In this document: in pieces, positions 494 to 6,005 of the stretch
Layout: each line of letters starts with the position of its first letter
Position numbering within the stretch: the stretch's first letter is position 1
The notes under the pieces: model-generated
Seen by the model: the letters and a program-made list of their open reading frames with translations, nothing else
The model's database searches: none
What the model was told of the DNA's origin: nothing
Translations under genes and position numbers: made by a program
Assembly: GCA_949283905.1 (NCBI GenBank)
Contig: CASDUB010000020.1
Span: forward strand, 1 to 6,005
DNA length: 6,005 nucleotides
Reading direction: 5' to 3'
Source of the DNA: an uncultured Lachnospiraceae bacterium
GTDB taxonomy: Bacteria > Bacillota > Clostridia > Lachnospirales > Lachnospiraceae

Positions 494-1837
494 TCAACTG
501 ACAGCTTTTTTGCCTTCTCTTTTTTGTCTTTTGGCAGGCTCTTTATCTGTCTCTGCTTCTATATGTGTATCTTCTGTACCTCGTGTATCTTCTGTTTTAT
601 TTTCTTTTCTTATGATCCTCGGAGCTTCTGTTCCTTCGACTGCTTCTTTCGTTATCTCACATGAAACAATGCTCTCATCAGACGGAGTTTCAAACATAAC
701 GTCCATCATAGTATTTTCCATGATCGCCCGAAGTCCTCTGGCTCCTGTTTTTCTCTGAACGGCAGCTTTCGCTATAGCTCGAAGCGCGTCATCCGTAAAT
801 GTAAGCTTAACGCCGTCAAGCTCAAAAAGTTTTTTGTACTGTTTTACAAGACTGTTCTTCGGCTCTGTCAGGATGGTTACAAGCGCATCCTCATCTACCG
901 CGTCAAGGCTTACGACAACGGGAATTCGTCCGACAAATTCCGGAATCAGACCGAATTTGATCAGATCCTGCGGCATTACTTCTTTAAGAAGTTCTCCGAC
1001 ATTGCTGTCGTCAATAACGCCAAGATCAGCGTTAAATCCCATTGATTTAGTGTCTTTTCTCTGTTTGATCACTCTGTCGAGTCCCTCAAACGCGCCGCCG
1101 CAAATGAAAAGTATATTTGTTGTATCTATCTGAATATATTCCTGCTGCGGATGTTTTCTTCCGCCCTTAGGAGGAACATTCGCAATCGTTCCTTCTACTA
1201 TTTTTAAAAGCGCCTGCTGTACGCCTTCTCCGGAAACATCTCTTGTTATAGACGCATTTTCTGATTTTCTTGTGATCTTATCGATCTCATCGATATAAAT
1301 AATACCTCTCTGAGCACGCTCAACGTCATAATCAGCCGCCTGTATAAGTCTGAGAAGAATATTTTCCACGTCCTCGCCCACATATCCGGCTTCCGTAAGA
1401 TTTGTCGCGTCTGTTATAGCAAACGGAACATTTAATATTCTCGCAAGTGTCTGCGCAAGAAGAGTTTTTCCCGAACCTGTAGGACCGAGCATAAGAATAT
1501 TGCTCTTCTGAAGTTCAACATCTGTCTGCTCTGCGCTTAACACCCTCTTATAATGATTGTATACAGAAACAGCAAGCGTTTTCTTCGCTTCCTCCTGCCC
1601 GATAACATATTCATCAAGGATCTCTTTTATTTCTTTCGGTTTCATGAGCACGATATCGCTGTCATTGATTTCTTCATGCTCTTCAAAATAATCTTCTTCC
1701 GCCAGTATCTCCCTGCAAAGATCAACACACTCGTTACATATAAATATTCCGGCCGGTCCGGCGATCATTTTCTGAACCTGTCCTTCCGCTTTTCCGCAAA
1801 ACGAACATCTTGCCACTGATATACCTTTGCTGCTCAT
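494..1837 (-). CDS. clpX: ATP-dependent Clp protease ATP-binding subunit ClpX
   Basis: ClpX is the hexameric AAA+ unfoldase that feeds substrates to ClpP in the cytoplasm. The chosen start gives 447 residues. The zinc-binding domain has cysteines at 11, 14, 34 and 37. Walker A is GPTGSGKT (118-125), the pore-1 loop is GYVG (151-154), and Walker B is IIYIDEID with Asp183-Glu184. The RKH pore loop is at 227-229, the ClpP-docking loop reads MGF (266-268, the family's IGF-type motif), and sensor 2 is GARGLR (365-370). All key elements are present, so the protein should be active with the ClpP encoded just upstream. An in-frame ATG at 1876 would add 13 residues, but it lies inside the terminator hairpin and lacks a ribosome binding site. 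The ATG at 1837 has GAGGAG 6 nt upstream. The last ~37 residues are a highly charged tail with a TEDT duplication, longer than the ~424-residue E. coli protein. Confidence 0.97.
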
Positions 1838-1843
1838 CGTATT

Positions 1844-1849
1844 CTCCTC
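1844..1849 (-). promoter_or_regulatory. Ribosome binding site deciding the clpX start
   Basis: GAGGAG on the minus strand lies 6 nt before the ATG at 1837. It selects the start that begins [11 protein letters not shown], directly ahead of the zinc-finger cysteines, over the upstream in-frame ATG at 1876. Confidence 0.85.
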
Positions 1850-1862
1850 TATCCAGAAATTT

Positions 1863-1890
1863 AATTTAAATCTCAAAAAAGGGGCATCAA
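1863..1890 (-). promoter_or_regulatory. Possible weak promoter for clpX-lon overlapping the clpP terminator
   Basis: A -35-like TTGATG (1885-1890) and a -10-like TAAATT (1863-1868) are separated by 16 nt. Each matches the SigA consensus at 4 of 6 positions. The -35 lies in the descending arm of the terminator hairpin and the -10 just beyond its T-run. Transcription from here would give a short 5' UTR ending in the clpX ribosome binding site. The region is AT-rich, so such matches can arise by chance. The alternative is that clpX is reached only by read-through of the terminator. Confidence 0.3.
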
Positions 1891-1924
1891 AACTAAGGTC
1901 TAAACCTTATTTGAAACACCCCTT
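1875..1924 (-). terminator. Rho-independent terminator after clpP
   Basis: On the minus strand, starting 5 nt after the clpP stop, there is a long interrupted hairpin. AAGGGG (1919-1924) pairs with CCCCTT (1879-1884), TCAAA (1910-1914) pairs with TTTGA (1887-1891), and TAAGG (1905-1909) pairs with CCTTA (1894-1898). The loop is TTTAGA and there are two small internal bulges. A run of six T (1875-1880) follows the CCCC arm, partly shared with the stem base. There is no comparable T-run on the plus strand, so it works in the direction of tig-clpP transcription. It probably reduces, rather than abolishes, transcription into clpX-lon. Confidence 0.85.
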
Positions 1925-1929
1925 CAAAA

Positions 1930-2511
1930 TTATCTCTTTGTGATTACCTCGTCGATAAGGCCGTATTCTTTTGCCTCTTCGGCGCTCATAAAATTATCTC
2001 TTTCCGTATCAAGCTCAATACGCGATAATTCCTGTCCTGTATTTTCAGCTAAAATCGTATTGAGTTTTTTACGTGTTTTTAAAATATGTTCAGCCGCGAT
2101 CTGAATTTCGGTTGCCTGACCCTGCGCTCCGCCCAGCGGCTGATGAATCATGATCTCTGCGTTTGGAAGAGCCAGTCTCTTGCCTTTTGCTCCGCCTGAA
2201 AGAAGGAATGCTCCCATACTTGCAGCCATACCGATACAGATAGTAGAAACATCGCATTTAATGTACTGCATCGTATCGTAAATAGCCATACCGGCTGTGA
2301 CCGATCCGCCCGGGCTGTTTATGTATAAATTAATATCTTTGTTAGGATCTTCCGCTTCAAGGAAAAGGAGCTGCGCAACAACAAGCGATGCTGTAACATC
2401 ATTCACCTCTTCACCGAGAAAGATAATTCTGTCTTTAAGAAGTCTTGAATAGATATCAAATGTTCTTTCACCGTTTCCGGTCTGTTCTATTACATATGGC
2501 ACCAGACTCAT
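1930..2511 (-). CDS. clpP: ATP-dependent Clp protease proteolytic subunit ClpP
   Basis: ClpP is the tetradecameric serine protease chamber that works with ClpX (encoded next) and possibly other Clp ATPases in the cytoplasm. The protein has 193 residues, the normal length for the family. The catalytic triad is visible: Ser98 in GMAASMGAF, His123 in MIHQP, and Asp172 in LDTERDNF. The oxyanion-hole and strand region [18 protein letters not shown] (64-81) is intact. A short N-terminal segment ([11 protein letters not shown]) resembles the processed or flexible N-terminus of ClpP1-type proteins. AGGAGG (2519-2524) lies 7 nt before the ATG and fixes the start. The gap to tig is only 29 nt with no promoter that I can see, so tig and clpP are most likely one transcript. 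That transcript ends at the hairpin just downstream. Confidence 0.98.
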
Positions 2512-2540
2512 GCTTCTGCCTCCTTTTGTTTTGCCAAAGA

Positions 2541-3866
2541 TTATTCAGCTTTTTCCTCTGCTGCTTCTTCAGCTTTTGCCTCTACTTCTACAGCGCTGTT
2601 ACCTACGAGCTCTGCAGCAAGCTCTGTTCTCATATTCTCTTTGAACTGAACCATGTAAGCATCATTGAAGATCTCTTTAAGTTTATCAACTTCCATACCG
2701 TATGCTTTAGCCATATCGGCAAGTTTCTCTTCAACTTTCTCATCTGTAACTTCAATATTTTCAACTTCAGCGATCTTCTCAAGAACAAACTGTGTACGAA
2801 GCTGCTGGATAGCTTCAGGTTTCATGTTCTCTTTGACATCTTCGATCTTCTGACCTGACATTGTAAGATACTGTTCAAGATCCATGCCCTGCATTCTCAT
2901 GTTGTTAGCTGTCTGTTCGAACATGTTGTTAACCTGTTCTTCAACAAGAAGATCTGAAAGATCTACTGTAGCGTTTGCGATAGCTTTGTCCATTGCAGCG
3001 TTGATCTTAGCGTTCTCGGCATTTTTAGCTTTACGCTCTTCAATAGTCTTTTTAAGACTTTCTTTGTACTCTGCAAGTGTATCAAACTCTGATACATCCT
3101 GTGCGAATTCATCGTCAAGCTCAGGAAGCTCAAGTTTCTCGATGCGTTTTACTGTGCAGTGGAATACAGCTTCTTTTCCGGCGAGATCTTTCGCATGATA
3201 GTCTTCAGGGAATGTAACTACTACATCTTTTTCTTCTCCTGTAGATACGCCTACAAGCTGATCTTCAAATCCCGGAATAAACTGTCCTGAACCGAGAACA
3301 AGATGATGATCCTGTGCTGTGCCGCCGTCAAAAGCAACGCCATCGATAGTTCCTGCGTAGTCGATAACTACTGTATCATCCATCTGAGCTGCTCTGTCAT
3401 CAACAGTTACTGTTCTGCTGTTCTTGCTCTGCTCTGATTTAAGTTCTGCTTCTACATCTTCGTCTGTTACAACGATCTCTGTTTTCGGAACCTCTACGCC
3501 CTTGTACTGTCCGAGAACAACTTCAGGAGTAACTCCAACTTCTGCCGTAAAGATAAAATCTTTTCCTTTTTCGATCTGAACGATGTCGATCAAAGGACGT
3601 GTTAAGATTTTGAGTTCGCTTTCCTCAGCAGCTTTCGGATAATTATCTGTAAGGCAGATGTTTGCTGCTTCCTCATAAAATACTTCTACGCCGTACATTT
3701 TTTCTACAAGCTGTTTCGGAACTTTTCCTTTACGGAATCCCGGAACCGAGAAGTTCTTTTTCATCTTTTTATATGCTGAGTCAATAGCTTTTACAAACTC
3801 CTCTGCCGGAACTGTAACCGTGAGTTTAGCTGTACTCTTCTCTAAATTTTCTACCTGAACGCTCAT
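2541..3866 (-). CDS. tig: Trigger factor, ribosome-associated chaperone and peptidyl-prolyl isomerase
   Basis: Trigger factor binds the ribosomal exit tunnel and shields nascent chains. With the chosen start it has 441 residues, close to the family's usual 430-450. The N-terminal ribosome-binding domain holds the signature GFRKGKVP at 43-50, the same position as in E. coli. An FKBP-type isomerase domain spans about 155-243 ([11 protein letters not shown], then [13 protein letters not shown] at 195-207). The C-terminal helical chaperone arms cover about 245-425, and the tail is acidic and Ala/Glu-rich. A longer frame opens at 3959, but its extra 31 residues overlap the promoter and 5' UTR and do not look like trigger factor. 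The ATG at 3866 has AGGAGG 9 nt upstream, whereas the ATG at 3875 directly abuts that site. A good promoter lies ~100 nt upstream. It precedes clpP, as in many Firmicutes. Confidence 0.97.
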
Positions 3867-3875
3867 TGTGTTCAT

Positions 3876-3881
3876 CCTCCT
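3876..3881 (-). promoter_or_regulatory. Ribosome binding site deciding the tig start
   Basis: A full AGGAGG on the minus strand lies 9 nt before the ATG at 3866, giving a protein that begins [10 protein letters not shown] as in other trigger factors. The in-frame ATG at 3875 follows the motif with no spacer and is therefore unlikely to be used. Confidence 0.85.
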
Positions 3882-3969
3882 ACTTATATATAAATAATTG
3901 TAATTTTTTCGCAATGTATTATAAACCTGATAAAACAGGACAGTCTTCCACCATCGCAATCATTTCGAA

Positions 3970-4044: not shown

Positions 4045-5442
4045 TTATCCCACATGCAATACTTGTATAAAAAGCAGCCATGCAAGGCCGTAATATGCAA
4101 TTACTGCTACAAAGTCATTAACTGTAGTAATCAGCGGTCCTGATGCAACGGCCGGGTCAACATGAAGACTGTGAAAGATCATAGGTATGATCGTACCCAC
4201 CAGACTCGAAATAACCATTGCGATGACCAGTGCTATCCCAACGCAAAGAGCAATAGAAAACGCTTCATATACATTGCCGTGTTTAACTATCATCGTATAT
4301 ATACCGACAAAAGCAAATGCTATTATTCCTAAAAGAAGACCGTTGGAAAATCCTACTCTCATTTCCTTTAATGCAAGATATCTTTTCTTTTCGCCCGTAA
4401 GATTTTCATCCATAAGCACTCTGATCGTTACGGCAAGGGACTGCGTTCCGACATTTCCCGCCATATCAAGGATAAGCGACTGGAAGCTTATTATAATAGG
4501 TACAACGGCAACTATCGTTTCAAACATTCCGATAAAAGATGATACGGCCATACCGAGGAAAAGCAGGATCAAAAGCCACGGGAGACGCTTTTTCATGCTT
4601 TCCTTATTCGTTTCATTTAAGTCTTCTTCAGCGGTAAGACCTCCCAGCTTCGCATAATCATCGCCCAGCTCTTCATCGACTACTTCAACTATATTTTGCG
4701 CAGTAATGATTCCGACTATCTGTCCGTCGTCTGTAAGAACCGGTATTGAATCTTCCGCATAATCTTTTATGCGTTCAATACAATCGCTTATCTTTTCATG
4801 ATCGTAAACAAAAGGATAAGACGTCGTTACAATATCCTCAAGTTTTTCATAATCTCTGGCAATTATAAGATCTTTCAGATCAATTGCTCCGCAGAACACA
4901 TCATTTTCATCCGTCACATATATTGTAGAAATATTGTCATTATCGCCTGCCTGTTTAACAAGCTCGCGCATAGCCTGACGGATCGATATATTGTTTGGAA
5001 TAACAACATAATTGGTAGTTATGATGCTTCCGACTTCATCGTCATCGTAGGATCGGATAAGGTGAATATCACGGCTTGCTTCCTCGTCCAGCATCCCGAC
5101 AAGTTTTTCCTGCGTTTCCTCATCCATTTCTTCGAGTACGTCTACCGCATCGTCAGAATCCATGTTTGAAATAACTTCCGCCGCCTGCTTAAGCCCCATT
5201 TCTTCAAGGTAGATTTCCACATCGTCATCAATATAACTGAGAATCTCCGAGAATGTTTCAGGCCCTATAATATCATACAGGCGTTTACGTTCCTCGGCAT
5301 TTAACTGTACAAAAGCATCAGCTATATCGTTCTCGTGATAATCTGCAAGCCTTTCTCTGATCTCATCCTTCGGCAGATCGCTTTTTATAATGCCGAGCAG
5401 TTCCTCTACATAATTTTGTCCTTTTAATACTTTGTTTTCCAT
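4045..5442 (-). CDS. mgtE: Magnesium transporter MgtE
   Basis: MgtE is a homodimeric Mg2+-gated channel/transporter in the cytoplasmic membrane. The 465 residues show the full architecture. An acidic N-terminal helical domain (about 1-135) is followed by two CBS domains (about 138-200 and 205-262), a connecting helix (about 265-285) and five membrane segments (about 287-306, 308-327, 363-386, 393-423, 436-462). The family signatures DMAGNVGTQS (326-335) and DPAVASGPLITTVNDF (429-444) are intact. By alignment from memory, Asp443 corresponds to the pore Asp432 of Thermus MgtE. The cytosolic domains are rich in Asp and Glu, as expected for the Mg2+-sensing part that closes the channel when Mg2+ is high. 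AAGGAGGT centred at 5449-5454 lies 6 nt before the ATG. Upstream are a terminator and a small ORF rather than a clear dedicated promoter. I see no terminator between mgtE and tig. Confidence 0.97.
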   Translation of the reverse strand: MENKVLKGQNYVEELLGIIKSDLPKDEIRERLADYHENDIADAFVQLNAEERKRLYDIIGPETFSEILSYIDDDVEIYLEEMGLKQAAEVISNMDSDDAVDVLEEMDEETQEKLVGMLDEEASRDIHLIRSYDDDEVGSIITTNYVVIPNNISIRQAMRELVKQAGDNDNISTIYVTDENDVFCGAIDLKDLIIARDYEKLEDIVTTSYPFVYDHEKISDCIERIKDYAEDSIPVLTDDGQIVGIITAQNIVEVVDEELGDDYAKLGGLTAEEDLNETNKESMKKRLPWLLILLFLGMAVSSFIGMFETIVAVVPIIISFQSLILDMAGNVGTQSLAVTIRVLMDENLTGEKKRYLALKEMRVGFSNGLLLGIIAFAFVGIYTMIVKHGNVYEAFSIALCVGIALVIAMVISSLVGTIIPMIFHSLHVDPAVASGPLITTVNDFVAVIAYYGLAWLLFIQVLHVG

Positions 5443-5486
5443 CTCTTACCTCCTTACTTTTTCAACGTAAGTGCTCGAGAAAGAAT

Positions 5487-5513
5487 AAAAAAAGCCGCTC
5501 AAACAAAGCAGCT
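5487..5513 (-). terminator. Intrinsic terminator between the small ORF and mgtE, possible attenuator
   Basis: On the minus strand AGCTGCT (5507-5513) pairs with AGCGGCT (5493-5499), with one G-U pair and a 7-nt loop (5500-5506). A run of seven T (5487-5493) follows, its first T shared with the last base pair. It lies 11 nt after the small-ORF stop and 44 nt before the mgtE start. No convincing promoter follows it, so mgtE expression probably depends at least partly on transcription passing this site. Confidence 0.85.
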
Positions 5514-5552
5514 GTTACATTTGATTATTCAAAAGTGAAAATGGACAACTGC
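5508..5552 (-). promoter_or_regulatory. Candidate antiterminator pairing in the mgtE leader
   Basis: In the minus-strand RNA, GCAGUUGU (5545-5552, near the 3' end of the small ORF) can pair with ACAGCUGC (5508-5515), which is most of the left arm of the terminator. This gives 8 bp, seven Watson-Crick and one G-U, with a 29-nt loop. It would prevent the terminator from forming. The same 5545-5552 segment is also used by the large leader hairpin, so the two structures exclude each other. This is a pairing observation; a regulatory role is inferred. Confidence 0.45.
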
Positions 5553-5617
5553 TTTTCAAACGCTTTATTTATTTTTTCCCAATTCCGACTTCGTCCCATA
5601 TTGTCACAACTGTCCAT
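5525..5617 (-). CDS. Small ORF of 30 codons in the mgtE leader, candidate leader peptide
   Basis: This complete ATG-to-TAA frame encodes 30 residues. It begins MDSCDNMGRSRNWEK, continues with a basic, amphipathic-looking KINKAFEKQL stretch, and ends SIFTFE. I do not recognise the family. It is too short for a confident homology call, has no signal peptide, and has no membrane segment. What supports it as a real gene is its setting: a near-ideal ribosome binding site 7 nt upstream, a promoter at the right distance, and an intrinsic terminator just after the stop. It contains no run of identical codons of the kind seen in amino-acid attenuators. The N-terminus has Asp at positions 2 and 5. Its two ends are complementary at the RNA level, so its translation could control the downstream terminator and hence mgtE. 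It could equally be an independent small protein gene. Confidence 0.6.
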   Translation of the reverse strand: MDSCDNMGRSRNWEKINKAFEKQLSIFTFE

Positions 5618-5625
5618 TTTTTCAC
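5535..5625 (-). promoter_or_regulatory. Large leader hairpin enclosing the small ORF
   Basis: In the minus-strand RNA, GUGAAAA (5619-5625) pairs with UUUUCAC (5535-5541), UGGACA (5611-5616) with UGUCCA (5542-5547), and GUUGU (5606-5610) with GCAGU (5548-5552, three G-U pairs). This makes 18 bp interrupted only by a 2-nt AA bulge (5617-5618). The stem contains the 3' edge of the ribosome binding site and the start codon. If it forms, it could mask initiation and would leave the downstream terminator free to fold. A translating ribosome would disrupt it. The complementarity is seen directly; the function is inferred. Confidence 0.55.
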
Positions 5626-5630
5626 CTCCC
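5623..5630 (-). promoter_or_regulatory. Strong ribosome binding site of the 30-codon ORF
   Basis: GGGAGGTG on the minus strand has its GGAGG core at 5625-5629, 7 nt before the ATG at 5617. Its strength is the main reason for calling such a short ORF. Its last three bases take part in the large leader hairpin. Confidence 0.8.
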
Positions 5631-5651
5631 TGAACTTTTCTGTACATTATA

Positions 5652-5680
5652 AATCTAACATTCTGGCATCAGACAGTCAA
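5652..5680 (-). promoter_or_regulatory. Promoter for the small ORF and, by read-through, mgtE
   Basis: The -35 is TTGACT (5675-5680, 5 of 6 matches to consensus). The spacer is 17 nt and the -10 is TAGATT (5652-5657), preceded by TGT, which makes an extended -10. A perfect TATAAT lies immediately downstream (5646-5651) but has no good -35 at normal spacing. Transcription would start at about 5640-5645, leaving a short UTR before the ribosome binding site. Confidence 0.65.
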
Positions 5681-5703: not shown

Positions 5704-6005
5704 GGTTTCATTTTTTGTTTTCTATTCGCAGTCTTCTCACCCTTACTACGAACCATATTCAAGTTTTCCATTTCTGATTCGTAGCCTTCTGCAGGCTATT
5801 ACGTATCAAATTCAAGTTTTTCATTTTTGATTCGTAGCCTTCTCCGACTTACTACGTATCAAATTCAAGTTTTTCATTTCTGATTCGTAGCCTTCTCCGA
5901 CTTACTACGTATCAAATCTAAGTTCTTCGTTTTTGATTCGTAGCACTTCCCCGCTTCCTACGAATCAAATTCAAGTTTTTCATTTCTGATTCGTAGCCTT
6001 TCTCA
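5704..6005. repeat. Tandem array of 53-bp palindrome-bearing units, truncated by window end
   Basis: The period is exactly 53 bp, with unit starts at 5704, 5757, 5810, 5863, 5916 and 5969; the last is cut by the window edge. The first unit is degenerate (roughly two-thirds identical to the others). Units 3 and 4 differ at one position only (5827 versus 5880). Each of the later units has TTCAAGTTTTTCATT-like sequence followed by TGATTCGTAG, a 14-nt loop, and CTACGTATCA or CTACGAATCA, so it can form a hairpin or cruciform. In the fifth unit the arms match perfectly over 12 bp (5932-5943 with 5958-5969). The period is not a multiple of three and stop codons occur, so it is not coding. No gene, T-run terminator or known insertion-sequence end is visible in it. 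Confidence 0.95.

Follow-up and report, generated by a model that had tools for sequence, protein, structure and literature searches.

The mgtE locus and its leader ORF

The DNA analysed, here called the window, is a 6,005-nucleotide stretch that forms one entire contig of an uncultured Lachnospiraceae bacterium whose genome is incomplete (82.6% complete, 299 contigs). On the minus strand a leader Shine-Dalgarno sequence, a leader ORF, an intrinsic terminator and mgtE follow one another in that order (Table 1). The mgtE product carries MgtE_N, CBS (two stretches) and MgtE domains as detected with Pfam. The ORFs farther downstream on the same strand (494-3959) presumably encode trigger factor, ClpP and ClpX, which their translations resemble. 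Immediately ahead of the leader promoter region, positions 5712-6000 are occupied by a tandem repeat with a 53-bp unit (5.5 copies, 84% matches), which reaches the contig end.

Table 1 Coordinates of the leader, terminator and mgtE features in the window
Feature	Position	Strand	Basis
Promoter-like site TTGACT-17-TAGATT, TG ahead of second hexamer	5652..5680	-	9/12 matches
Leader Shine-Dalgarno GGGAGGTG	5623..5630	-	read from sequence
Leader ORF MDSCDNMGRSRNWEKINKAFEKQLSIFTFE plus stop, 30 codons	5525..5617	-	sequence and ORF translation; relatives precede mgtE
Segment 1, leader Shine-Dalgarno and start region; partner, segment 2	5606..5625	-	p floor 0.010 in the window
Codons 9-10 CGA AGT, proposed ribosome waiting place	5588..5593	-	codon counts; putative pause
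Antiterminator 5' strand, codons 18-25	5545..5566	-	near-full complement of the whole terminator
Segment 2, leader ORF end; partner, segment 1 or segment 3	5535..5552	-	folding, shuffles
Intrinsic terminator, segments 3 and 4 plus seven-T run	5487..5513	-	terminator scan, folding
mgtE Shine-Dalgarno AAGGAGG	5449..5455	-	read from sequence
mgtE, Mg2+ channel gene, proposed target of control	4045..5442	-	Pfam MgtE, MgtE_N and CBS above cut-offs

A preliminary description of this DNA had listed a 30-codon ORF with a strong ribosome binding site, a terminator with a T7 run and then mgtE, all of which are present. It had also named an extended -10 promoter. A site with the TG exists, but it is weak, as one such site was found in the window versus 0.9 expected by chance. 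Scanning for terminators gave one site, whereas shuffles averaged 0.2; its stem lies at 5513-5493 and its seven-T run at 5493-5487. The leader (5645-5484) is predicted to fold at -38.5 kcal/mol (z -2.84), a value that none of 200 shuffles equalled. No Rfam match was obtained at E≤1 across the leader region, and the M-box (RF00380) is absent from the window. The leader peptide starts MDSCDNMGRS. An alternative in-frame ATG at 5647 gives a 40-codon version, and the start kept among relatives is that at 5617.

A leader family with an in-frame CGA

By sequence comparison the leader ORF of the window belongs to a conserved family with the fixed core M-D-x-x-D-S-x-x-R. The family, its core and the nearly invariant in-frame CGA had all escaped the preliminary description. 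As a sample chosen independently of the motif we took 240 genomes of the bacterial family, about one per genus, of which 65 encode mgtE at E≤1e-80 (69 genes). Upstream DNA was read for 66 of the 69 genes (those of G039, G187 and G211 were left out), two of the stretches being short (L130, 339 nt; L138, 247 nt). Leaders were recognised by peptide plus Shine-Dalgarno sequence, and by eye if the core was loose. A leader with the core precedes 41 of these 66 genes, 37 of the 41 having the in-frame CGA, and no leader was visible before the other 25. We also applied a mechanical rule, devised after the data had been seen, that demands a Shine-Dalgarno sequence, a start, Asp followed by Ser, Gly or Asn, and CGA no more than five codons on. 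It was satisfied in the sense direction at 35/66 genes, in the antisense direction at 0/66 and in ten shuffles at a mean of 0.5. Five leaders from elsewhere (L039, L042, L046, L055, L141) were added to the 41 to give a set of 46, in all of which a Shine-Dalgarno-like stretch and a start precede the core. A sub-group (L121, L046, L196) has DSYGSDGR or DSCGSSGR, starts differently and carries its CGA at codon 12, and the cores of L046 and L121 need a different alignment.

Leaders of this type are found again within the window's own genome, which has two (L034 precedes its second mgtE), and in Anaerobutyricum hallii (L042). In A. hallii DSM 3353 a CCACCGC/GCGGTGG stem precedes the T run. The peptide alone located the same ORF ahead of mgtE in a genome of the same genus (G205, E 0.0045). 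When the peptide was used in a translated search of 200 family genomes, 24 gave matches at E≤1; the only strong match was to the source genome itself, and two weak ones (G027 and G199) proved to be true leaders. Outside the bacterial family but within its class, seven of eight mgtE genes read have a leader with an in-frame CGA (L197 is the exception), these seven coming from three families and few genera.

DNA patterns gave a similar picture. Of 397 family genomes, 13 contained the core pattern, at 14 places in all, ten before mgtE and four chance-like; its backwards version, used as control, matched nine times. Allowing synonymous codons and requiring a start codon gave 13 places in 12 of the 397 genomes, 11 of them before mgtE and two not, with no control matches. 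A strict pattern matched three places in three of 341 class genomes, all before mgtE, and gave one control match; one of the three places belongs to a different family (G651, L141). With each place counted once there are 12 true matches, every one before mgtE. Five others (G191, G358, G176, G068, G318) were discarded as chance because no mgtE follows.

Where the core position holds Arg, the codon is CGA in 42 of 43 leaders. Within codons 2-12 of 45 leaders CGA accounts for 46/59 Arg codons, versus 7/59 in the remainder of the leaders and 39/518 in 29 mgtE genes. AGT likewise accounts for 89/113 Ser codons there versus 141/853 in mgtE; a few of the 45 leaders came through patterns that fix or favour the CGA or AGT letters, and the 41 sample leaders did not. 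Four sequences counted as leaders (L111, L112, L128, L132) have no CGA at the core position and were excluded from the 42-leader profiles below. The codon following CGA is AGT in 27 of the 42, and elsewhere it specifies Thr, Leu, Tyr, Lys and others.

The decoding of CGA was considered in a complete relative, G237, whose leader starts MDSCDSHGRS. At least 66 tRNA genes matched Rfam in this genome (150 of 170 candidates scored), and 65 were typed by ARAGORN. For Arg the typed genes carry the anticodons acg (two), tct, ccg and cct, and none of the 65 has tcg. The acg anticodon is edited to inosine by TadA, and the only tRNA gene found in G237 able to read CGA is this ACG (inosine) one. According to PMC4046918, a Salmonella his-leader assay placed CGA, AGU and GGU among the slow codons, with CGA slower than CGU and CGC.

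Conserved helices and the predicted switch

Two helices appear to persist in the family despite changing sequence: helix 1:2, between leader start and leader end, and helix A:3, between the segment past CGA and downstream RNA. For the 42 CGA leaders, each 15-base segment was scored for pairing with the downstream RNA of its own leader, relative to shuffles. The gain for A:3 peaked 12 nt past the first base of CGA (mean Z -1.51; p≤0.05 in 24/42), and near CGA (-3 to +3) 2-7% of leaders reached p≤0.05. The CGA+12 segment preferred its own downstream RNA over 95% of that of other leaders in 21/42 cases, and a second test gave p≤0.05 in 23 of the 46 leaders. A profile anchored on the start codon peaked nearly as well as that anchored on CGA, because CGA is codon 9 in most leaders.

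The preliminary description had paired 5606-5625 with 5535-5552 (1:2), a pairing that in the window, taking the best of six offsets, none of 100 shuffles of the start segment equalled (p floor 0.010). Across leaders it peaked at ATG-6, with p≤0.05 in 19/42. The paired sequences vary widely among genera (for example L114, L121, L113 and L099). The conservation of stems in relatives on which that description had made its proposal depend is found for 1:2, which is kept although its sequence changes. Seven leaders found later reached p≤0.05 in two cases for 1:2 and in one for A:3, so that independent support for the helices is modest. No combined probability is given because the leaders are related to one another. 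Comparison of relatives thus supports the family and the codon bias, and also both helices, the latter less strongly beyond the first leader set.

Judged from its footprint, a ribosome whose A site is occupied by CGA extends, at its leading edge, to about 12 nt past the first base of CGA. In most relatives the start of the A:3 segment appears to coincide with this edge, a positional agreement rather than proof of a pause. The antiterminator strand of the window starts 27 nt past CGA, versus the 12-nt peak of the relatives. The 2:3 pairing proposed earlier for the window exists but is longer than described, since in codons 18-25 (5566-5545) there is near-complementarity to the terminator over its full length. 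The earlier reading is supported as to a leader-ORF attenuator and the kept 1:2 stem, but the antiterminator strand of relatives peaks 12 nt after CGA and not at the ORF end.

Folding of the window leader predicts a switch that depends on ribosome position. Without a ribosome the terminator has a probability of 1.00. With the P site at codons 1-14 the antiterminator is at 1.00 and the terminator at 0.00, at codons 15-17 the states are mixed, and from codon 18 the terminator returns to 1.00. When the antiterminator-strand segment was shuffled, mean terminator probability was 0.87 versus 0.00 for the real segment. These values support the earlier proposal that a ribosome near the start of the leader ORF frees the antiterminator.

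A terminator-like site is present in 30 of the 46 leaders and was not seen in the other 16, and thus the output end of the switch varies. With a ribosome at CGA, terminator probability fell below 0.5 and was as low as 95% of 40 shuffled segments or lower in 10/30 (L028, L039, L042, L080, L090, L093, L100, L109, L113, L129), a count biased toward switching because the measure takes, per leader, the site with the largest switch. In four more (L062, L111, L112, L128) the drop beat shuffles but was smaller, and in the remaining 16 of the 30 the switch was no better than in shuffles. A first terminator measure, which scored how the eight bases ahead of the T run pair, was abandoned because the antiterminator pairs those bases too. 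Five of the ten clear switchers (L028, L042, L090, L100, L129) terminate at ≥0.9 as free RNA, and hence these would need a ribosome that stays to reach the on state. The free RNAs of L080, L093, L109 and L113 terminate at <0.2, so that there ribosome drop-off would serve equally well. Segment 3 of L054 (p 0.015) and of L123 (p 0.045) is able to pair with the ribosome binding site of mgtE.

Proposed control of mgtE and its relation to known systems

On balance we think it likely that the window leader is a ribosome-mediated transcription attenuator through which mgtE would be transcribed when a ribosome lingers at CGA. With no ribosome on the leader, its start and end would pair (1:2), the terminator would form and mgtE would be off. 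If a ribosome waited with its A site on CGA, it would cover the start region and block 1:2, leaving the RNA from about 12 nt past CGA free to form the antiterminator, and mgtE would be on. A ribosome that runs to the ORF end would cover the antiterminator strand and the gene would again be off. In relatives that lack a terminator the same switch would act on the mgtE ribosome binding site. The attenuation itself is a prediction from folding; that the ribosome pauses at CGA, and that this pausing responds to Mg2+, is our inference. Decoding of CGA, read by the inosine tRNA only, and of AGU would be weak, and Mg2+ shortage would slow both further, in the manner of the codon-specific slow translation of Salmonella mgtL. 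With just one slow codon, the pause may be only brief. That low Mg2+ is the signal is suggested by the gene under control and by analogy with mgtL.

More tentatively, the leader could be a one-codon Mg2+ sensor. Falling Mg2+ would weaken CGA decoding first (an inosine tRNA with a purine-purine wobble), and the stalled ribosome would open mgtE transcription, with the AGU codons and the early acidic residues helping. Such a device would replace the M-box in this bacterial family and beyond. If so, gut bacteria nearly devoid of the M-box would provide another, seemingly independent, case of a Mg2+ transporter controlled through translation, and with the sensor narrowed to one codon, which decoding step feels Mg2+ in the cell would become directly testable.

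The early acidic peptide could instead be the sensor, a reading we consider rather unlikely. Asp2 and Asp5 would destabilise the ribosome at low Mg2+ and cause a pause or drop-off near codon 5, as in MgtL, whose residues Glu2 and Asp4 are important for drop-off when Mg2+ is low (PMC11282234). Asp lies at codon -4 from CGA in 33/42 leaders, and since both of its codons are used (GAC 19, GAT 14) it looks to be held as an amino acid. CGA looks to be held as a codon, and the best-kept feature of the leaders is that codon, not an amino acid alone. Drop-off would also turn mgtE on in L080, L093, L109 and L113, but in the window, L042, L090, L100 and L129 the free RNA is predicted to terminate, and thus drop-off there would switch the gene off. 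Moreover, the D-x-x-D spacing is unlike the adjacent or alternate acidic residues described in that paper.

About as improbable is a genuine attenuator that answers to something other than Mg2+, namely general translation speed, charging of tRNA-Arg(ACG) or inosine modification. The kept codon does specify Arg, and in G237 a single tRNA reads it. However, all 12 true pattern matches lie before mgtE and none before genes of arginine or other amino-acid metabolism. Classical amino-acid leaders carry several codons for their amino acid, whereas these leaders have one conserved Arg codon only.

It is far less probable that the core GAYAGU...CGAAGU acts as an RNA aptamer (a riboswitch) with the ORF incidental. 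The core nucleotides are strongly conserved, but their spacing changes by whole codons, CGA standing anywhere from codon 6 to codon 12. When GAYRGT and CGA are located irrespective of frame, 60 of the 73 distances between them, which are of several lengths, are divisible by three (of the 13 exceptions, seven have two bases between, as TGC-GAY alone would give). This favours a core read by ribosomes over one that is fixed as an RNA fold. Pairing within the core is not above that of shuffles, Rfam has no match to the window, and a Shine-Dalgarno sequence and start lie ahead of the core in 46/46 leaders. Least credible is a leader without regulatory role whose pairings arose by chance: the 25/66 mgtE genes without a visible leader would fit it, but the ORF, the codon and the two helices are conserved far above shuffles and antisense.

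The proposed attenuator can be set beside known systems. In his and trp attenuators, as predicted here, ribosome position on a leader ORF selects between an antiterminator and an intrinsic terminator, and the leader start pairs with a later segment. Unlike them, the window family has a single kept CGA in place of a codon run and precedes a metal transporter gene. In the window a leader ORF with Shine-Dalgarno sequence, start and stop lies ahead of a terminator, this intrinsic terminator separates leader and mgtE, and folding gives an exclusive antiterminator that depends on ribosome position, which is clear in 10/30 leaders.

The mgtL leader of mgtA (Salmonella, E. coli) is likewise a short ORF with early acidic residues ahead of a Mg2+ transporter gene. 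Codon-specific slow translation has been proposed as its Mg2+ sensor, and slowness turns the gene on (PMC6335274 and PMC11282234): at low Mg2+ slow mgtL translation permits mgtA transcription (PMC6335274), and early acidic residues of MgtL cause drop-off (PMC11282234). The two differ in other respects. The MgtL peptide has an EPDP motif, with Pro, Leu and CGG codons; the window leader has neither this motif nor a run of early Pro codons, and no Pro codon is kept in the leader family. Control of mgtA uses Rho-dependent termination, whereas the window leader has an intrinsic terminator, perhaps replaced by the mgtE ribosome binding site in relatives. Finally, mgtL controls the MgtA pump, whereas the window leader precedes a gene for the MgtE channel. 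In the literature searched, which covered few subscription journals and no bioRxiv preprints, no description of such an mgtE leader was found.

The M-box (RF00380) also controls mgtE and other Mg2+ transporter genes elsewhere, but the window family differs from it in reading an ORF. An M-box sits before mgtE in a Bacilli MAG (L049), and none was found in the window or in nine other leader loci scanned. It was found in 1/65 mgtE genomes (G065), by a search that also detects it in B. subtilis and L. lactis and that uses stricter filters, so that weak matches are lost. The G065 M-box (L191, G065:C35) is on a contig other than that of its mgtE, and the leader of that mgtE (L128) is a doubtful member without CGA.

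Two further observations concern the leader loci. In one genome that has no such leader, a Clostridiales-1 RNA (RF01699, 101.5 bits) lies shortly upstream of mgtE, at L122:803-967. The T run after the terminator stem often continues into a common tail, TTTTTTATGCCCTTTTTT, as seen in L090, L100, L101, L111 and others, from several genera.
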